A stretch of DNA of 35,295 nucleotides from positions 1 through 35,295 of IMG/VR virus record IMGVR_UViG_3300024305_000004; one strand, given 5' to 3'. The number at the start of each line of letters is the position of its first letter. The first letter of the stretch is position 1. Under the pieces are notes generated by a model, which was given only the letters and a program-made list of their open reading frames with translations, did no database searches and had not been told where the DNA came from. This DNA comes from a virus. Below, one piece after another: positions 4,940-30,779 of the stretch. A program made the translations under genes and the position numbers.

Positions 4940-5434
4940 ATGGCGACTGCCGCAAAGAAGCTGAAGAAAGTGCAGGAATCCAACGTGTCCCACCTGCCCA
5001 CGCCGCCCACGCCTACCGTCAGGCTGGGCAAGCAGACCTTCGCCGCCCCGGCCTCGCTGGGCGAACTGGTGCTGCACGGCGCGGCCCTGAAGAACGAGAT
5101 CGACGGGCTGAAGGACAAGCTGGAGGAAGTGAACGCGAAAATTCTTGCGGAGGTGCCGCGCTGGATGGACGGCAACGGCACCCTGCACATCGTCATCGCG
5201 AGCGTGGACTGCACCGTGTCCCTGCGCGATTCCGTGGCCATTGCCGACGTGGGCACCCTGCGCGAACTGCTGGGCGACCGCTTCCCCGACCTCGTGAAGG
5301 AAAAGGCCACCTATTCGCCCGAACCCAAGCTGGTCAGCCTTGCCCTTGATGGCGACGACCCGATGCAGTTTGCCGTGGCCAACTGCCTGCGGATTCAGGA
5401 AGCCAAGGCCACCGTGAGCTACAAGGCCGCGTAA
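4940..5434 (+). CDS. Conserved-looking early protein of unknown function
   Basis: A 164-residue protein with a strong ribosome site (GGAGGAAAC) before ATG 4940, one base after the previous stop. The Lys-rich start and a Pro/Thr linker precede a coiled-coil-like helix (residues 44-72, LHGAALKNEIDGLKDKLEEV). A mixed alpha/beta domain follows, ending YSPEPKLVSLALDGDDPM. In Mu-like phages this region carries small replication-support genes such as Gam. I see no Gam signature here, so that identity is not claimed. It is the last gene before a set of terminator-like hairpins, and so ends the early block. Confidence 0.7.
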   Translation: MATAAKKLKKVQESNVSHLPTPPTPTVRLGKQTFAAPASLGELVLHGAALKNEIDGLKDKLEEVNAKILAEVPRWMDGNGTLHIVIASVDCTVSLRDSVAIADVGTLRELLGDRFPDLVKEKATYSPEPKLVSLALDGDDPMQFAVANCLRIQEAKATVSYKAA

Positions 5435-6118: not shown

Positions 6119-6559
6119 ATGGCGACTTCTGACGCCCGGCCCGAAGGCCGCAATTCACTGCTGGCCAAGATTCACATTGCCCGGAAGGACTTGGCCCTGG
6201 GCGAGGACGTTTACCGCGACCTGCTGGAACGGGTGACCGGGCAACGCTCCGCATCCGGCCTGACGGACAGGCAACTGGTGGCCGTGGTGGCCGAACTGCG
6301 GGCCAAGGGCTGGCAGCCCAAGGCGGCACCGCGCAAGGGCCGCAAGCCGCGCGTGAAGGCCGGTGGTTCCGCCCTGCTGGCCAAGATGGAGGCGCTGCTG
6401 GCCGACAACGGCAGGCCGTGGAGCTACGCGGAAGCCATCGCCCGGCGCATGTTCGGGGTGGAGAAGCTGGAATGGTGCGACGCGGACCAGCTAAAGGCCG
6501 TCATGGTGGCGCTGGTAAAGGATGCGCGCCGCCGCGAGGGCAAGGAGGAAGAGGCATGA
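6119..6559 (+). CDS. gemA: gp16/GemA-like protein (DUF1018)
   Basis: A 146-residue protein preceded by GGAGGTG. The segment LLAKIHIARKDLALGEDVYRDLL, then LTDRQLVAVVAELRAKGW, is the hallmark of the Mu gp16 family, followed by a basic linker (GRKPRVKAG) and a C-terminal helical domain with LEWCDADQLKAVMVAL. In Mu, the gene product changes host DNA supercoiling and gene expression during development. Its stop overlaps the start of the Mor gene, so the two are coupled, matching the Mu order gp16-mor. An in-frame TTG at 6092 has no good ribosome site and is rejected as start. Confidence 0.88.
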   Translation: MATSDARPEGRNSLLAKIHIARKDLALGEDVYRDLLERVTGQRSASGLTDRQLVAVVAELRAKGWQPKAAPRKGRKPRVKAGGSALLAKMEALLADNGRPWSYAEAIARRMFGVEKLEWCDADQLKAVMVALVKDARRREGKEEEA

Positions 6560-7017
6560 CGCGCGATGCCTTGCAGATCATGCAGCACGAGGACAGCATG
6601 CCCGCCATGGCCCGCGAGATTGCCGGGCTTATCGGCATGCCCGATACCCTGCGGCTGGTGGAGGCGCTGGGCGGCACGACGTTCCCGGTTCCCAAGCGGG
6701 GGAACAAGCTGGGCGAACTTCGCTTCAGCATGCTGGAGCAAGCCGTGGGCGTGGTCTCCTCTGACATCCTGTGCAAGCAGTACGGCGGAACCAACCTGTA
6801 CATACCCCGCTGTGCCGATGCGTTGCGCAGGGCGCGGGATACGGAGATAATCCGTCATTTCGATGCCGAGATACGGACCGGGCGCACCGGAACGGAAGTT
6901 GTCGCGGAGCTCGCCCTGCGATATAGGCTGTCTGACAGGCGCGTCTGGCTGATCTTGAAGGGAACGGATATCGCGCCAGACCGTCAACCTGCCCCAGCAC
7001 AGGGGCGGCTGGTGTAG
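6556..7017 (+). CDS. mor: Mor-family transcription activator
   Basis: A 153-residue protein of the Mor/C family, which binds dyad sites as a dimer next to weak promoters and recruits RNA polymerase to turn on middle or late genes. The N-terminal dimerisation part includes MAREIAGLIG and LRLVEALGG. The conserved turn YGGTNLYIPRC is followed by a helix-turn-helix (VVAELALRYRLSDRRVWLILKG). AAGGAGGAAGAGG precedes ATG 6556, which overlaps the previous stop. Only one family member is present, so it may activate the late operons directly. Its targets could be the three repeated elements at 7697, 17741 and 30356; that link is inference. Confidence 0.9.
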   Translation: MTRDALQIMQHEDSMPAMAREIAGLIGMPDTLRLVEALGGTTFPVPKRGNKLGELRFSMLEQAVGVVSSDILCKQYGGTNLYIPRCADALRRARDTEIIRHFDAEIRTGRTGTEVVAELALRYRLSDRRVWLILKGTDIAPDRQPAPAQGRLV

Positions 7018-7025
7018 AGGGGCAT

Positions 7026-7691
7026 ATGAAACGTAGTATACTTGTGGCGTTGTTCTTCGTGCTGATCGCGAGCGTTGCCTATGCTGGCGACAATAAGGTT
7101 CCGCTCTATAAAGATTTTTATCATGGAATGACAAGAAGTGACGTGAACAAACGCGCAAACGTCGTCCCTTGCCTTTTTGAGGACGGCTCAGATTCTTTGT
7201 GCGTAAATGATGCGATGTTTGCTGGTGTAAAATGGAAGCAGGCGTTTAATTTTTCTGATGGAAAACTTACTCATATCACAATTGCCAGCAAGCTTAACGA
7301 TAAAAATTATTCTTCTACGTTAGGAGCAATTGTAAAAAATAATTTTGTTCCCGCATTGATGCGGATGAAAAATGAAACTTGTGATTTTAGTCAAGTATAT
7401 AATAGCATGGATAGGTCTAAGGCAGAGGCATACATAAATGAATTTGAAGCACGCGGACTGCGGTCTGAGAGCATACTCTACATATTTCTTGAGAAAGATG
7501 TTATTGCATCTGCAAAAGGGTCCACAAATATTTCAGAAATTATTAAACAATCTCCCGTAACAATGCGACAGGTTGAAATGGAGATATTCAATAGCGATGG
7601 GGATTCGTGGCTTGCCGTGCGTTTCCTGGCTCCAAAAATGTCGCATGGTATTCTTCTAAAGCAAATGGAAGACAGTACGGAGACCTTCTAG
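7026..7691 (+). CDS. Secreted cargo protein, unknown function
   Basis: A 221-residue protein, strikingly AT-rich compared with its neighbours. The N-terminus MKRSILVALFFVLIASVAYA is a Sec signal peptide with cleavage expected after residue 20. The mature part begins GDNKVPLYKDFYHGMTRSDV; the FYHGMTRSDV stretch recalls the GMT motif of BamE/SmpA-like folds. Cysteines at 49, 59 and 119 could form a disulfide. GAGGGG precedes the ATG, eight bases after mor. It lies between mor and the first repeated late element, so it is probably acquired cargo acting in the periplasm. Function unknown; a lysogen-conversion or exclusion role is only a guess. Confidence 0.85.
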   Translation: MKRSILVALFFVLIASVAYAGDNKVPLYKDFYHGMTRSDVNKRANVVPCLFEDGSDSLCVNDAMFAGVKWKQAFNFSDGKLTHITIASKLNDKNYSSTLGAIVKNNFVPALMRMKNETCDFSQVYNSMDRSKAEAYINEFEARGLRSESILYIFLEKDVIASAKGSTNISEIIKQSPVTMRQVEMEIFNSDGDSWLAVRFLAPKMSHGILLKQMEDSTETF

Positions 7692-7696
7692 CTCCC

Positions 7697-7760
7697 CACT
7701 GAACCCCTTCCCCCTGTCTCCGCCCCCGGTTGCTGCCAATATGGCAGTGACCGGGGGCGG
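7697..7760 (+). promoter_or_regulatory. Late element copy 1, before the lysis operon
   Basis: Bases 7697-7719 are identical to two other places in the window (17741-17763 and 30356-30378); the core reads ACTGAACCCCTTCCCCC. The element is followed at once by a dyad: CCGCCCCCGGT (7720-7730) with ACCGGGGGCGG (7750-7760), and an inner stem CTGCCA/TGGCAG (7733-7738, 7742-7747). The holin starts 60 bases later. Position matches Mu Plys. It may be a late promoter/activator site, or a terminator of the cargo gene in front. There is no T-run after the hairpin, which speaks against a simple terminator. Confidence 0.6.
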
Positions 7761-7820: not shown

Positions 7821-8192
7821 GTGTCCATCCTGTCCCGTCTGCGCGGCATCCGGCATACGCGCATGCTGCTGTGCAGCCTGATTGCCGTCGCGCTGTGGCT
7901 GTTCCTTTGGCACGCCTCGCCCAGGGAGGCGCTTATCGTCACCTACAAGCTCACTCAGGTCATGCTGGCCGCAGTGGTCACCTACTGGATCGACCGCTGG
8001 CTGTTTCCCTACGCCCGGCCCGAAGGCTACCTGTGCGAGGAATGGCGCGACCGCATCGGCTCCGGCGACTGGCCCGATGGCGTCGATGACTTCCCGGTGG
8101 TGACGGAATCCAAGACCCTGTTCATGGTCGCCTGCCTGCGTCGCAGCTTCCTGATGGGCGCGGCGATGCTGGCCGTGGAACTGGGACTCTAG
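7821..8192 (+). CDS. Putative holin
   Basis: A 123-residue membrane protein with a GTG start and the ribosome site AGGGAGG. Hydrophobic segments lie at about residues 14-31 and 40-56, with a weaker one at 104-122; a polar loop (PEGYLCEEWRDRIGSGDW) lies between. It is the first gene of the lysis block and directly precedes the muralytic enzyme and spanins, so it most likely forms the inner-membrane lesion that triggers lysis. Annotation rests on topology and context; holins are poorly conserved in sequence. Confidence 0.8.
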   Translation: MSILSRLRGIRHTRMLLCSLIAVALWLFLWHASPREALIVTYKLTQVMLAAVVTYWIDRWLFPYARPEGYLCEEWRDRIGSGDWPDGVDDFPVVTESKTLFMVACLRRSFLMGAAMLAVELGL

Positions 8193-10171: not shown

Positions 10172-10672
10172 GTGGCCCACGCCGAGGAAACCCGGCGGCA
10201 ACTGCGCGCCGCCTTCATCTACGACCAGTTGCCGCTGGAAATGGCCGCCACCAGGGCGGGCGTGCCCGCGTCCACGGCGGCCCGCTGGAAGCGGCAGGCC
10301 AAGGCCGACGGCGACGATTGGGACAAGGCGCGCACCGCCAGCATGCTGGCCATGGGCGGCACCGACGACGTGGCCCGGCAGGTGCTGACCGACTACATGG
10401 TGCAGCACAAGACCCTGCTGGACGAACTGCGCGAAGGCACCCTGAAGCCCAAGGAACGCGCGGACATCCTTGCCAGCCTTGCCGACAGCTTCAACAAGAC
10501 TGTGGCCGCCTGCCGCCGCGTCATGCCGGAAACGAATGAACTTGCAGTGGCGCTGCGTATTCTGAACAGGCTCGCTGAATTCGTACAAAGAGAATATCCG
10601 AATCACATTGAGGCATTTCTTGAGATACTGGAGCCATTCGGTGAGACTTTAACACAAGGGAAAGAGGTTTAG
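10172..10672 (+). CDS. Small terminase-type DNA-packaging protein (gp27-like, DUF1804)
   Basis: A 166-residue protein with a GTG start after a GGGGGG site. The N-terminus has a helix-turn-helix (LPLEMAATRAGVPASTAARW) that probably recognises packaging DNA; the rest is helical (VARQVLTDYMVQHKTLLDEL, RADILASLADSFNKTV). Size and order before the large terminase match Mu gp27. The last roughly 45 codons are noticeably AT-richer than the rest, and the stop codon overlaps the stop of a convergent cargo gene. This suggests the 3' end was replaced by recombination when the cargo entered. Confidence 0.85.
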   Translation: MAHAEETRRQLRAAFIYDQLPLEMAATRAGVPASTAARWKRQAKADGDDWDKARTASMLAMGGTDDVARQVLTDYMVQHKTLLDELREGTLKPKERADILASLADSFNKTVAACRRVMPETNELAVALRILNRLAEFVQREYPNHIEAFLEILEPFGETLTQGKEV

Positions 10673-16486: not shown

Positions 16487-17746
16487 ATGAGGCTTACCGT
16501 CCCGAGAACGTTTAGTTTCTATCCAGAAGGTTTTTGTGACTTTTCCACGGTGTTGTCCTTTTTTGATTGGAATCCACAAAGCGACCATGTCGAAATTGAT
16601 TTGAGTGCGTGTGCAAACGCAAATTTCCAAGCGCTATCTTTGATTACATTGTATTGCTTTTTTATGTCGTCAAAAAACATCCGAGTTGACATCATACCAG
16701 ACGTGAATAGCATGTATTCTCCGTCAGCAATGTGGAAGAGTATGGGATGCAAAGGATGGAGAAAAGTCCTGTCTGGAGAATCTGATCAGTTTATTTCAAC
16801 TCGTTATAAGCCACTTTTTGCTCTTAAAGATAATGAATCTTTCAAATCTGCAATAAGCAATGTTGAAATATATACAAAAAATTTAGGGTTAGAATATGAA
16901 AAGACATTGCGTTATGTCATGTCTGAATTGTTCTACAATGCAATGGAACATGGGGTTTCAGTTCATAAGAAGAATAATAGGGCAATTCCTCCTATTGTTC
17001 AGTATACATGGTATAAGCGAAGAGATGAAATACAATTTATCATAGCGGATTTAGGCATTGGAATCAAAAGGCATCTTGAACAGTCCAGCATGCCGTTTGC
17101 GGATAGCTGTGAGGCAATAATTGAAGCAATAAAACCGGGAAAGTCTGGAACATTTGGTGCGTCAAGACCATACGAGAGCAAAAACAACGCTGGAATGGGG
17201 CTGTACATATCTAACAATATTATTAAAAAGTTACATTCAGACATGCATATTATATCATATGATGGCAGTGTGCATATATCTCCTTCAGACGTCACTCACA
17301 AAAAGCTGGAAACTCCTTGGCCAGGAACGTTCGTATGGCTCACTGTAAAACTGAATAAAAACTCACGATTTACTTACGAGAGCACGTTGTCAGAATTGCG
17401 ATCTGCTGCGGAGAGAGAGATTTTAGAGAAAGATTCTAGTGAAATATCGAAGACCCTTCTTGTAGATATATATAATTATTTTGGAAGAAATGCAGAGGTA
17501 AAACCTGAAGCAATTGCGTATCGCGACAAATACATACTTCCTGCAATATTGGAAGGAAAAAGTATAAAGCTTGATTTTTCTGGCGTTGTATCATCTCCTC
17601 ACAGCTTTCTTAATGCCCTACTGGCAACCCCTGTAGAAAAGCTTGGAATGACAGCTTATAAAAGAATAAAAGTTGTCAATGCGGACTCGGACATACGAGA
17701 GACTATTGACTATATAATGGACGAGAACACCTCGTCATCCCACTGA
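16487..17746 (+). CDS. GHKL-ATPase flanked by STAS-like domains (DUF4325-type C-terminus), cargo
   Basis: A 419-residue AT-rich protein after AGGGGG and ATG 16487. Residues about 1-110 read like a STAS-type fold (VEIDLSACANANFQAL). Residues 130-290 form a GHKL ATPase: N-box SELFYNAMEHG (146-156), G1 box ADLGIGI (187-193), G2 box NNAGMGL (233-239) and PGTF (279-282). The C-terminus from about 330 contains KSIKLDFSGVVSSPHSFLNA, the signature of STAS-like DUF4325. Known STAS/GHKL pairs are separate anti-sigma and anti-anti-sigma proteins; here both types sit in one chain. No membrane segment or histidine-kinase dimerisation region is seen. Host regulation or phage defence are inferred possibilities. 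Confidence 0.85.
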   Translation: MRLTVPRTFSFYPEGFCDFSTVLSFFDWNPQSDHVEIDLSACANANFQALSLITLYCFFMSSKNIRVDIIPDVNSMYSPSAMWKSMGCKGWRKVLSGESDQFISTRYKPLFALKDNESFKSAISNVEIYTKNLGLEYEKTLRYVMSELFYNAMEHGVSVHKKNNRAIPPIVQYTWYKRRDEIQFIIADLGIGIKRHLEQSSMPFADSCEAIIEAIKPGKSGTFGASRPYESKNNAGMGLYISNNIIKKLHSDMHIISYDGSVHISPSDVTHKKLETPWPGTFVWLTVKLNKNSRFTYESTLSELRSAAEREILEKDSSEISKTLLVDIYNYFGRNAEVKPEAIAYRDKYILPAILEGKSIKLDFSGVVSSPHSFLNALLATPVEKLGMTAYKRIKVVNADSDIRETIDYIMDENTSSSH

Positions 17747-17795
17747 ACCCCTTCCCCCTGTCTTGCACCGCATGCCCCCGTATACCGGGGGCATG
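17741..17795 (+). promoter_or_regulatory. Late element copy 2, before the protease/capsid operon
   Basis: Bases 17741-17763 repeat exactly the 23-nt element found at 7697 and 30356. The TGA of the GHKL cargo gene lies inside it. Seven bases later come CATGCCCCCG (17771-17780) and CGGGGGCATG (17786-17795), a perfect 10-bp stem with loop TATAC. The 3' arm contains the likely ATG of protease I (17793) and the only G-rich ribosome site, so the hairpin would also hide translation start. Position matches the Mu late promoter PI. Confidence 0.62.
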
Positions 17796-18953
17796 TCGCA
17801 TTTAAAGCCCCCGCGTACAACGCACCCCACCGCAGTCCTTACCGTGCCCCTTTCCGTGGGCGACGGCACTTCCGACCTTCCCGACGGGCTGAACGTCCAG
17901 CTTCTGCCGGACGGCAGCTTTACCGCGCGTGATGGTCGCCCCGCCTCCATGACCAAGGGCGCGCTGACAGCGTGGTGCCTTGATGCAGACATTGCCGCCC
18001 CCGTGGTGGCCGATGCGCAGGCCCGCGAAACCCCGCTGGTCATCGACTACGAACACCAGACCCTGAACGCCAGACAGAACGGCAAACCCGCCCCGGCTGC
18101 CGGGTGGATTGATGCCGTCACCTACCTGCCGGGCCGTGGCCTGTTCGCCGCCGTTACCTGGACCGAGCGTGCCCGCGCCTACATCGAAGCGGGCGAGTAC
18201 CGCTTCATCTCCCCCGTCTTTTCCTTCGACGCCGCAACCGGCGCGGTGCTGCGCCTCATCAGCGCCGCGCTTACCAACACCCCGGCCCTTGACGGCATGT
18301 CCGTCGTGGCAGCCGTGGAAGACCTCGCAACACAGGAGACCGCAATGGATGAACTTCTGGAGCGCCTGCGCTGGATGCTGAACCTGCCCGTCACGGCCAC
18401 GGCGCAGGACATCATGGCCCAGTTGGACAAGCTGAAGGCCATGCTGGGCGGCGAAGGCGAAGCCGCCGCTACCGACGGTGCACCCCCCGCAGGCCAGCCC
18501 GCCCCCGTGGACCTGCTGGCCCTGCTCACCGAACAGCGCGCGCAGATTGCCGCGTTGTCGGCGGCCACCCCGGACCCGGCCCGCTTCGTGCCCATGGAGG
18601 CGCTGACCGCCTTGCAGCAGTCCGCTGCCGCCTTGCAGGCCCGCGTGGCCGAACTGGAAACCGGGCAGACCGTGGCCGCCATGGCGGTGGAAATCGACGC
18701 GGCGCTGGCCGATGGCCGCCTGAACAGGGCCGTGGAGCCTTGGGCGCGCGAACTGGCCAGAACCGACCCCGACGCCCTGCGCAACTACCTTTCCGTGGCC
18801 GTGCCGGTGGCCGCCCTGACCGCCATGCAGACCACCCGCGTTACGCCCCAGCCCGTGCCGGGCACGGCGGCCCTTACCGACGAAGACACCTACACCATGA
18901 ACCAGTTGGGGCTGACTCCCGAAGAGTTCCGCGCCAGCAAGGAGGGCAAGTAA
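17793..18953 (+). CDS. I: Prohead protease I
   Basis: A 386-residue homologue of Mu gpI, which processes the prohead and, through its C-terminal half, serves as scaffold. The N-terminal protease domain contains PLVIDYEHQT (81-90), then GWIDAVTYLPGRGLFAAV and YRFISPVFSF, typical of peptidase U35 family I proteins. The C-terminal half is helical. The start is uncertain: the frame is open to 17763 with ATGs at 17772 and 17793. The later one is chosen because the stretch before it is the hairpin. The gene contains an internal scaffold start (18345). Confidence 0.9.
   Translation: MSHLKPPRTTHPTAVLTVPLSVGDGTSDLPDGLNVQLLPDGSFTARDGRPASMTKGALTAWCLDADIAAPVVADAQARETPLVIDYEHQTLNARQNGKPAPAAGWIDAVTYLPGRGLFAAVTWTERARAYIEAGEYRFISPVFSFDAATGAVLRLISAALTNTPALDGMSVVAAVEDLATQETAMDELLERLRWMLNLPVTATAQDIMAQLDKLKAMLGGEGEAAATDGAPPAGQPAPVDLLALLTEQRAQIAALSAATPDPARFVPMEALTALQQSAAALQARVAELETGQTVAAMAVEIDAALADGRLNRAVEPWARELARTDPDALRNYLSVAVPVAALTAMQTTRVTPQPVPGTAALTDEDTYTMNQLGLTPEEFRASKEGK
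18345..18953 (+). CDS. Z: Scaffold protein from an internal in-frame start (Mu Z-like)
   Basis: Within the protease gene, ATG 18345 (residue 185 of I; MDELLERLRWMLNLPV) is preceded by CAGGAG at ideal spacing, far better than anything before the main start. It would give a 202-residue helical protein (MAQLDKLKAMLGGEG, an Ala/Pro linker, then ALQQSAAALQARVAELE), fitting a scaffold that is removed during maturation. Mu and related phages make scaffold Z from the 3' part of I in the same way. Confidence 0.75.
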   Translation: MDELLERLRWMLNLPVTATAQDIMAQLDKLKAMLGGEGEAAATDGAPPAGQPAPVDLLALLTEQRAQIAALSAATPDPARFVPMEALTALQQSAAALQARVAELETGQTVAAMAVEIDAALADGRLNRAVEPWARELARTDPDALRNYLSVAVPVAALTAMQTTRVTPQPVPGTAALTDEDTYTMNQLGLTPEEFRASKEGK

Positions 18954-28851: not shown

Positions 28852-29047
28852 TTATAGCTGCATCTAGGCGCTGTAAAGGAAAATATGAAAGCAGGTTAGC
28901 ATGTAATGTTTCGTATTATTTCTTTCATTTGTGTTGCTCGTTGTATTTAATTTTTTACATAAGAACATATAACAAATGTATTTCTAGTTTGTATCAGACT
29001 GAATACGGCGTCGGGACTGTGAAATCCGCCACGACGCCGTATTAATA
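28852..29047. other. AT-rich intergenic segment after gp45 with long perfect dyad
   Basis: No gene is seen in this AT-rich stretch. Its main feature is AATACGGCGTCG (29002-29013) with its exact inverse (29032-29043), a 12-bp stem with an 18-base loop, just past the stop of the minus-strand cargo gene. It lies between convergent genes and probably stops transcription from both sides, although neither side has a clean T-run. Confidence 0.55.
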
Positions 29048-29332
29048 CTATTTAGGCCCTATATGTAAGATATATTCATTGTCTAATCTTGTTGTAAAAT
29101 CTTTTCCTTCATCTCCTTCTCCTGAAAGTGAATAGCTTCCATCGTTTTTTATAGTATATTTTGCTTTTGAGCCATCTGTAAAAAGGAAATAATGTGAGAC
29201 GCATTCACCATCATGCTCAGTATAGCATGATTTTATTCTTGAAATATTATCAATTCCAACTCTCGATATGGGCTTCTCTGGGGTTATTGTGAGTTTTCCA
29301 TTTTCATCGCGCGTAAGTTTTACGTTTGGCAT
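29048..29332 (-). CDS. Small cargo protein A at the gp45-gp46 junction
   Basis: A 94-residue AT-rich gene on the minus strand (MPNVKLTRDENGKLTITPEK, then VSHYFLFTDGSKAKYTIKND). GGAGAG lies eight bases before ATG 29332. The protein looks soluble and beta-rich, with two cysteines (C36, C44) and no signal peptide. No family is recognised. It stands between intact gp45 and the decayed gp46 copy, so it belongs to the older of two stacked insertions. Role unknown. Confidence 0.7.
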   Translation of the reverse strand: MPNVKLTRDENGKLTITPEKPISRVGIDNISRIKSCYTEHDGECVSHYFLFTDGSKAKYTIKNDGSYSLSGEGDEGKDFTTRLDNEYILHIGPK

Positions 29333-29377
29333 GATGATAACTCTCCAAATTTAGAGGTTAAGGATGAGATGCGCACC

Positions 29378-29575
29378 TGTTCTTGCTGTCTTTCATCCAC
29401 CGCCACGAGGGTGGTGGCATGGGCGCCCTGCGGCATTGGTATATTTATTAACGATTATAGCGATAAGTACTTTTTTAGTCTAGCCAATGCCGCCTCACCA
29501 CGATTGATGCACTCCTCGGCATGTGGTGCGGGACTCTTCCGCAGGGCCATGTTTGCACGAGCTTAAGCTGAGTGG
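29378..29575 (+). pseudogene. Decayed copy of the late element and gp46 5' end
   Basis: From 29378 the DNA aligns with 30363-30565: a degenerate pyrimidine tract with CTGTCTT, then a hairpin (CCACCGCC 29397-29404 with GGTGGTGG 29410-29417) and ATGGG at 29419. An identical 16-mer AGTCTAGCCAATGCCG (29477-29492) matches 30468-30483, and a diverged continuation runs to GAGC/AGTGGG. The frame hits TAA at codon 11 and is shifted by two bases, so it is dead. Many differences are C/T or G/A. It is a relic of a second gp46 start. Confidence 0.8.
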
Positions 29576-29589
29576 GTTGCGGATGTGTT

Positions 29590-29723
29590 TGGCCCACGCT
29601 GGACGCCGCCCCGAACACGACCTGCGACGTGACCCTTGATGGGAACCATGTCGCCGGGGCATCAGTCGGCGGCGCCACCGCCATCCTGGGGATTCGGGTG
29701 GGACGACGGGGGAGGCGGTGTAG
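29590..29723 (+). pseudogene. Decayed copy of the gp45 3' end
   Basis: This stretch aligns with the last about 130 bases of gp45 (28720-28851). Read forward it gives LDAAPNTTCDVTLDGNHVAG, against LDADLNTTGDVTSEGDHIAK in intact gp45, and at DNA level it shares the GGGGATTC and GACGGGGG blocks, ending at TAG 29721-29723. It is cut at its 5' side directly against the gp46 relic. Together the two relics mark the join between two successive cargo insertions. Confidence 0.78.
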
Positions 29724-30315
29724 GATGGCATTGCTTGCGTTGTGGGCGTTTAGCAAAGGTGACCCACAGAGTAGCAACAGCAAGACCAATTTTTACGAAA
29801 AGTGTTGCTTTAGAGCAGTCTGGTGCTTGCATCATAAGCGCGGATATGAAAATCATCGATAAAAAAAGATTTAATATAGACGATTCGTATTCATTATTGA
29901 CTTCAAGCGCTTTTTTGTATTTATCTTTTGCAGTATGAAAAGATTTAGTCCAAAAAAGCCTATCGTTCCCACATAATAAATACAATTCATCTATGTCTTC
30001 AGAATCATCAACATGTTTGTCATCAATCATTATTGATGATGATCTAAAGCATATGCACATAGATAATATTAGTGATGTTACCATCCAAAATATTTGAGAA
30101 GATTCTTCTGCATTTAAGTATGTAAAAATTCCAGTATTTGTTCCGCTAATTGACATTAATTGAATAGACATTATTGCAGAAAATACTGCTAGAATTAATT
30201 TTAACTTTCCTATTAGCGTTGCCCGTCTGTCTTGAAGCATCTTATAGCGTTCCCATATGTTCTTAACTAATACCTCAATATGTTCATGTGAAAATTTATT
30301 TTCTTTTGCAATCAT
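29662..30315 (-). CDS. Four-helix membrane cargo protein B, tail running into a relic
   Basis: A 217-residue AT-rich gene. The frame extends to 30435, but that part lies over the late element and gp46; ATG 30315 has AGG nine bases upstream and gives MIAKENKFSHEHIEVLVKNI. Four hydrophobic segments lie near residues 37-57, 75-91, 145-164 and 170-187, with a charged cytoplasmic loop (DDKHVDDSEDIDELYLLCG) and a helical YKKALEVNNEYE. Residues from about 198 (TPPPPSSHPNP) are read antisense through the gp45 relic, so the true end was probably lost. The layout recalls SLATT-like or exclusion membrane proteins; this is a guess. Confidence 0.7.
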   Translation of the reverse strand: MIAKENKFSHEHIEVLVKNIWERYKMLQDRRATLIGKLKLILAVFSAIMSIQLMSISGTNTGIFTYLNAEESSQIFWMVTSLILSMCICFRSSSIMIDDKHVDDSEDIDELYLLCGNDRLFWTKSFHTAKDKYKKALEVNNEYESSILNLFLSMIFISALMMQAPDCSKATLFVKIGLAVATLWVTFAKRPQRKQCHPTPPPPSSHPNPQDGGGAAD

Positions 30316-30355
30316 TATTTTTTGCCTATGCATAGTTAGAGTTGTTTTGTAGACA

Positions 30356-30406
30356 CACTGAACCCCTTCCCCCTGTCTTCCTTCCCAGCCGCCACTAGAG
30401 TGGCGG
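30356..30406 (+). promoter_or_regulatory. Late element copy 3, before gp46
   Basis: Bases 30356-30378 are the third identical copy of the 23-nt element. Ten bases later CCGCCACT (30389-30396) and AGTGGCGG (30399-30406) form a perfect 8-bp dyad ending one base before the gp46 ATG. As at copy 2, the 3' arm contains the G-rich ribosome site. The hairpin sequence is unlike those of the other copies, so the structure rather than its sequence seems to be kept. Confidence 0.62.
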
Positions 30407-30407
30407 T

Positions 30408-30779
30408 ATGGGTACCGATGCCGCACTTGATACACTTTCGGGCGACTATACCGGCGAACGCATTTCCAGTCTAGCCAATGCCGTCTACCTGCGCCTGATG
30501 ACGCCCCTTGGCACGTGGTGGGCGGACCCTTCCGTGGGGTCGCGCCTGCACGAACTGGAGCGGGAAAAGGACGTGGCGCGGGTGCGGCGTCTGGCCGTCC
30601 AGTACGCCGAGCAGGCCCTGCAACCGCTGGTGACGGACGGACGCGCCCGCGCCGTCAGCGTCACCGTCAGCGGCCTGGGACGGGACGATTCCGGCGGCGG
30701 GCGCTGCCTGCTGCATGTGGAAGTCACCGACGCGGCGGGCCGCCATGAAATGTACACCCATCCCGTGCGGGTTTCCTAA
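30408..30779 (+). CDS. gp46-like baseplate protein (GPW/gp25 family)
   Basis: A 123-residue protein starting MGTDAALDTLSGDYTGERIS, with LANAVYLRLMTPLGTWWADP and RLAVQYAEQALQPL, as in Mu gp46 and T4 gp25-type wedge proteins. It helps form the baseplate wedge. The start follows the hairpin of late element copy 3. A decayed second copy of its first about 50 codons lies one kilobase upstream. Confidence 0.92.
   Translation: MGTDAALDTLSGDYTGERISSLANAVYLRLMTPLGTWWADPSVGSRLHELEREKDVARVRRLAVQYAEQALQPLVTDGRARAVSVTVSGLGRDDSGGGRCLLHVEVTDAAGRHEMYTHPVRVS

Follow-up and report, generated by a model that had tools for sequence, protein, structure and literature searches.

Predicted Mor-activated late promoters with leaderless first genes and a palindrome that may mask them in read-through RNA in a Mu-like phage

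INTRODUCTION

At the phage Mu promoter Pm, the Mor dyad occupies positions −51 to −36, with its centre at −43.5 (PMC4390567; PMC4287176), and Mu C is known to act at open-complex formation at Plys, PI and PP (PMC4461284). Another kind of late control is described for T4 gene e, soc and I-TevI, where RNA initiated upstream hides the translation start in a hairpin and the RNA made from the late promoter is devoid of the 5′ arm (PMC3014915). For gene e, this corresponds to a hundredfold loss of lysozyme synthesis from the long transcripts (PMC3014915).

We analysed a 35,295-nt stretch of viral DNA (IMG/VR record IMGVR_UViG_3300024305_000004, hereafter called the window) in which an identical element heads three operons. 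The predicted organization is that of Mu Pm, Plys, PI and PP: a Mor-family activator, a dyad at −51 to −36 replacing the −35 element and a sigma70-type −10 box. An earlier note on this DNA had compared the three heads with the Mu late promoters. This is correct for those before the lysis genes and gpI, which have late heads in Mu as well, but the third precedes gp46 and not P (gp44). Other differences from Mu are the sequence of the box, the presence of one Mor-like gene instead of the Mor and C pair, the predicted leaderless starts and a palindrome over the −10 box and ATG.

Similarly to T4 gene e, the start regions of gpI and gp46 are paired in read-through RNA and freed in RNA from +1, as judged by folding only, and the lysis heads of three other phages (G292, G294 and G299) reproduce the gene e arrangement. 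However, T4 late transcripts carry a leader with a Shine-Dalgarno (SD) sequence and involve the T4 late sigma factor gp55, whereas leaderless mRNAs are predicted here; also in contrast to T4, the −10 box lies in the loop and the palindrome covers it at all three late operon heads. The Mu-like Pseudomonas phage DMS3 provides a further parallel, since the region from gpG to gpI holds variable cargo there and this cargo immediately precedes a promoter of the present type. Unlike the DMS3 anti-CRISPR locus, the window cargo consists of a HATPase/STAS-like gene that is no known anti-CRISPR.

Taken together, we propose Mor-activated late promoters with leaderless gpI and gp46 and an RNA-masking palindrome, a reading to which we give a probability of about 0.78. 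Mor binding, start sites, leaderless translation and masking are deduced from sequence, conservation and pairing statistics.

MATERIALS AND METHODS

The starting sets were the 80 best gp46 and the 80 best gpI relatives in viral contigs, enlarged by two further scans. Heads were reduced to 92 with <70% identity, kinship being weighted by this simple identity cut-off and not by a tree. For comparison, 78 other gene starts were drawn from DMS3, Mu and a Klebsiella phage. In the window, +1 was set to the A of the start codon at gpI and gp46 and was placed by the −10 rule at all sites. Searching entire phage records for the box with 2 mismatches allowed gave too much noise; a two-part scoring matrix (box and −10) was used instead and run over ten further phages and the window.

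RESULTS AND DISCUSSION

Three predicted late promoters share an identical element

The 23-mer CACTGAACCCCTTCCCCCTGTCT is identical at positions 7697–7719, 17741–17763 and 30356–30378. Its 17-base core gave three matches in the window with up to 3 mismatches (mean of 0.13 in shuffles, none of 100 shuffles giving three). In the host genome (4.2 Mb) the exact core was found at the three late heads only, and a looser 22-mer again retrieved only those three. The statement of the earlier note that the element lies at three places and nowhere else is thus borne out, in the window at up to 3 mismatches and in the host genome for exact matches. At each copy G+C content jumps sharply, from 30–42% upstream, where A+T-rich cargo is located, to 64–67% downstream. 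The Mor-family gene has a single match in the host genome (G000), and no usable match was obtained with its protein in a search of solved structures. Coordinates of all features are given in Table 1.

Table 1. Coordinates and supporting evidence for the three late operon heads of the window and their surroundings
Feature	Position	Strand	Evidence or remark
Mor-family activator gene	6556..7017	+	Pfam PF08765 E=1.6e-12; phrog_836 late transcriptional activator E=8.5e-38
Cargo ORF upstream of site 1, 40% G+C, stop 7 bp from box	7026..7691	+	
Site 1 (lysis), predicted Mor box, −51 to −36	7698..7713	+	exact repeat; position of the Mu Pm Mor dyad
Site 1, CTGTCT, weak −35-like hexamer, 17 bp before −10	7714..7719	+	sequence
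Site 1, palindrome centred on −10 region, containing two G-T oppositions	7722..7758	+	
Site 1, predicted −10 hexamer CAATAT	7737..7742	+	predicted start 7749/7750
Holin, first gene of lysis operon, SD GGGAGG	7821..8192	+	PF13272 E=1.4e-29
Cargo ORF before site 2, HATPase and STAS-like	16487..17746	+	PF02518, PF14213; phrog_5816
Site 2 (gpI), predicted Mor box, contains stop codon of upstream cargo ORF	17742..17757	+	exact repeat
Site 2, CTGTCT, weak −35-like hexamer	17758..17763	+	sequence
Site 2, perfect palindrome CATGCCCCCGTATACCGGGGGCATG over −10 and ATG	17771..17795	+	
Site 2, predicted −10 hexamer TATACC	17781..17786	+	
gpI protease, ATG = predicted +1 (leaderless), without SD	17793..18953	+	PF10123 E=1.7e-102
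Cargo block upstream of site 3, relic gp46-head/gp45-tail copies flanked by two minus-strand ORFs	28852..30356		
Site 3 (gp46), predicted Mor box	30357..30372	+	exact repeat
Site 3, CTGTCT, weak −35-like hexamer	30373..30378	+	sequence
Site 3, hairpin CCCAGCCGCCACTAGAGTGGCGGTATGGG with one bulged A, spanning −10 and ATG	30384..30412	+	
Site 3, predicted −10 hexamer TAGAGT	30396..30401	+	
gp46 baseplate protein, ATG = predicted +1 (leaderless), without SD	30408..30779	+	PF07409 E=2.7e-18

The 23-mer includes a predicted Mor-type dyad, clear as ACTGA-N6-TCAGT in the consensus of the relatives, at −51 to −36. This position is exact in the window, where the right half is degenerate (TCCCC vs TCAGT). 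The first A of ACTGA is 51 bp from the predicted +1 at all three sites; this distance, from Mor box to predicted transcription start, and not that from 23-mer to inverted repeat, is the relevant spacing. The three −10 hexamers are located at −12 to −7, and the CTGTCT at the −35 position matches 3/6.

The same register was observed in the 92 gpI and gp46 heads aligned on their ATG. TATAAT-like scores peaked at −12 to −7, with at least 4/6 in 32 heads compared to 16 at the next offset (−13) and 0–6 elsewhere. The most conserved bases of the −10 region were A−11 and T−7 (62% each), and C−1 reached 85%. A CTGAA-N4-TTCAG box with at least 8/10 matches was present in 50 of these heads (1.15 in shuffles), centred mostly at −43.5 or −44.5. 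The box–ATG distance together with the −10 register constitutes strong sequence evidence for a promoter. The earlier proposal of a late promoter or activator site is supported, since the element heads the holin, gpI and gp46 operons here and the same organization is present before those operons in many other Mu-like phages: the three elements are almost certainly late promoters, a well-supported reading, of which the 23-mer would be the activator-binding part.

SD cores were found in 5/92 late heads compared to 52/78 other genes (p=3e-18). As the ATG is at +1 in the box/−10 register and no SD is present, gpI and gp46 mRNAs are predicted to be leaderless, which we consider very probable. The holin gene has a leader; its start lies 72 nt downstream and has its own SD.

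The same design in other phages

The check suggested by the earlier note, to look for the 23-mer in related Mu-like prophages, located the element at the same three heads in viral contigs and Desulfovibrionaceae genomes. Nucleotide homology to close relatives resumes at 7697, 17737–17741 and 30356–30357, a few bases from the box. At every site, the upstream cargo varies among relatives while the start of homology stays at the box. In another genus of the same family the element reads ACTGAACCCCTTC[A/C]NCCTGTC, nearer to a full dyad.

In nearly all of the ten further phages, the lysis, gpI and gp46 heads were the three top hits of the matrix; in one of the ten, G288, the lysis site was low on the −10 part. 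Three sites were located in the Klebsiella phage and two in DMS3, of which one is directly after the late activator gene and the other directly after the anti-CRISPR locus, before gpI. No matching box was obtained with this matrix in Mu and SuMu. Mu C has its own sites, different from this box. Inverted repeats around the presumed −10 could be seen by eye at the Mu lys and I heads, the folding of lys being not clear-cut. The three-site design recurs in Mu-like phages of many hosts, and the box/−10/ATG pattern makes it possible to read off the late promoters and the true starts of genes in such phages.

Exact 17-mer matches in other genomes were mostly due to chance. L041 is a genuine distant member, which keeps the 51-bp distance from the 17-mer box to the gp46 ATG; its 17-mer, at 5160–5176 (−), forms the 5′ arm of an intrinsic terminator.

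In DMS3 (L404), the annotated gpI start of 19163 should probably be moved to 19037. At 10261, an ORF missing from the annotation begins directly at the predicted late promoter.

A palindrome centred on the −10 box

The inverted repeats following the 23-mer had been described as perfect, different in stem sequence and free of a T-run, and proposed as the place where the activator works. The differing stems and the absence of a T-run were found again at all three sites, and the repeats are real. Nevertheless, that of site 1 is imperfect as DNA, with two G-T oppositions that pair as G-U in RNA, and that of site 3 has a bulged A and one terminal G-T opposition. This second dyad is not an activator site but a palindrome that has its centre on the −10 box and often extends over the ATG. 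It covers the −10 and start codon, and the predicted activator dyad is within the 23-mer itself. We also rejected the second dyad as a common operator, since the stems differ and share only a loose GCCNCC...GGNGGC likeness in some cases.

For a palindrome with its centre near −9, 38/92 heads reached a score of 6 or more, where shuffles predict 3.7, and 24/92 a score of 8 or more, where they predict 0.28. Among the 78 other gene starts, two reached a score of 6 and none reached 8. In most of the 38 palindromes the right arm passes through the ATG, as in GTCCATGCCCCGCACACTGCGGGGCATGGAC (L257). A strong symmetric palindrome is absent in more than half of the 92 heads, and some of these may pair asymmetrically. 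At imperfect positions, G-U oppositions outnumbered A-C (19 vs 8, compared to 187:204 in shuffles; one-sided p=0.015). Pairing in the coding-sense RNA therefore seems to be favoured.

Folding of 61 heads showed strong pairing at −24 to −13 and −7 to −1, with −11 to −9 in an open loop. For the AUG, pairing averaged 0.69 in read-through RNA, 0.57 with shuffled upstream sequence and 0.28 in RNA from +1; its excess over shuffled upstream sequence was only moderate (p=0.002), in contrast to the strong excess at −24 to −13 and −7 to −1. For the window itself, folding of read-through RNA left the gpI AUG fully paired and the U and G of the gp46 AUG paired, both being largely free in RNA from +1.

The window and its nearest relatives have retained the palindrome at the lysis head. 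At site 1 it does not hide the holin start, which is too far downstream and has its own SD; masking of the gene e type does not extend to this start. The lysis heads of G292, G294 and G299 have a hairpin that extends across the predicted transcription start and in which a GGAUGG stretch located before the start codon is paired. The AUG comes directly after the hairpin in G292 and G294, and in G299 a few bases intervene.

Proposed mechanism and alternative readings

In the mechanism that we propose, the phage's own Mor-like protein would activate the three late promoters, its dimer binding at −51 to −36 in replacement of a good −35. RNA polymerase would use the hexamer at −12 to −7 and start at +1. 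For gpI and gp46 this would be the A of the ATG, so that their mRNAs would be leaderless; for the holin operon it would be a base within the leader. The palindrome would act as RNA: any transcript entering from the upstream operon or cargo would fold a hairpin against or over the start codon, with no SD to rescue translation, and RNA begun at +1, devoid of the 5′ arm, would be translatable. As only the latter would be unmasked, late proteins would be made only after Mor acts. With a hairpin over the transcription start, the late genes would probably be translatable only from RNA of their own promoter and not from cargo read-through. The pairing statistics give moderate support to an RNA role of the palindrome, and we lean towards masking as its main role.

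The palindrome could alternatively act on DNA, aiding or restraining opening of the −10 with Mor or binding a dimeric protein, RNA masking being then a by-product of a correctly identified late promoter. The position of the palindrome, with its peak near −9 on the −10 box, would fit such a role, as would its retention at the lysis site, which has no hidden start codon, and the known action of Mu C at open-complex formation (PMC4461284). Differing stems between sites are, however, difficult to reconcile with one binding protein. The 19:8 ratio of G-U to A-C also argues for RNA, as do stem variants of close relatives, which are C/T changes preserving G-U pairs. Moreover, the right arm often follows the start codon and second codon, and the hairpins of the G292, G294 and G299 lysis heads span the transcription start and abut or just precede the AUG. 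We therefore regard an action on DNA as rather unlikely.

That the hairpins are intrinsic terminators, ending or blocking upstream transcription, would agree with their location at operon boundaries. L041 and the G296 and G297 lysis heads do have an intrinsic terminator within the promoter, between box and −10, in keeping with the need for insulation that masking would also serve. But the three palindromes have no T-run, the terminator scan detected none between cargo and promoter at sites 1 and 2 and none at the site 3 late promoter, and a terminator-like structure within −200 to −10 was present in only 7/92 heads, making this reading very improbable. Little can be said for the 23-mer as a recombination site for cargo exchange, which the earlier note had raised, or as an attachment site. 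The 23-mer is the exact right edge of unrelated cargo at the three sites in every relative, yet no copy exists at a left cargo edge, the only three copies all being right edges. Conservation runs on through the −10 and start codon with promoter geometry, distant phages such as L067 have the box directly after the gp45 gene, and the one visible rearrangement, a duplication scar, has its junctions inside gp45 and gp46. This possibility, unsupported here, appears the least probable; the sharp boundary at the 23-mer is where promoter constraint begins.

Returning to the masking of read-through RNA, its usefulness would come from the fact that cargo abuts the late promoters without an intervening terminator. 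Self-masking, if true, would shield the lytic genes from transcription of the cargo and from lysogenic transcription, and would let anti-CRISPR genes and other cargo accumulate directly upstream of late promoters. Masking thus suggests why variable cargo, for instance at the DMS3 anti-CRISPR locus, sits near strong lytic promoters without leaking lytic proteins. We give an even chance to the broader proposition that a large Mu-like phage group uses self-masking late promoters, where the first gene of the capsid and baseplate operons at least has a leaderless mRNA, its start being hidden by a hairpin within the promoter whenever the RNA begins elsewhere. Leaderless late mRNAs in laboratory phages would provide a test case for leaderless translation. 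No description of a self-masking late-promoter arrangement was found in the literature searched, most subscription papers being outside its reach, and literature on leaderless late phage mRNAs and Desulfovibrio start-site maps gave nothing on late-head starts.

Cargo upstream of the late promoters

The cargo ORFs at sites 1 and 2 point towards the late genes and stop 7 bp before the box and inside it, respectively. Cargo stops 2–10 bp from the box in close relatives and further off in the other genus. Orientation is site-specific: plus before lysis and gpI and minus before gp46 in 10/11 cases (sites 1–3, L022–L060, L384–L391). PADLOC identified no defence family in the cargo, and the ORF before site 1 had no family match among Pfam and PHROG profiles. 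The HATPase and STAS-like (DUF4325) protein encoded at 16487–17746 matches phrog_5816 over its full length, and its gene occupies the locus holding anti-CRISPR genes in DMS3.

Before the real gp46 promoter, decayed copies of a gp46 head and a gp45 tail (29386–29563 and 29591–29721) split two cargo blocks. They are read as the scar of unequal recombination; the same layout of decayed copies was observed in L024. The gp46 head also contains, at 30473–30445 (−), a sigma70-like promoter pointing leftward, TAGACT-17-TATAGT, which could drive the two minus-strand cargo ORFs. In the relic gp46-head copy, at 29482–29454 (−), the leftward promoter has TATAAT.
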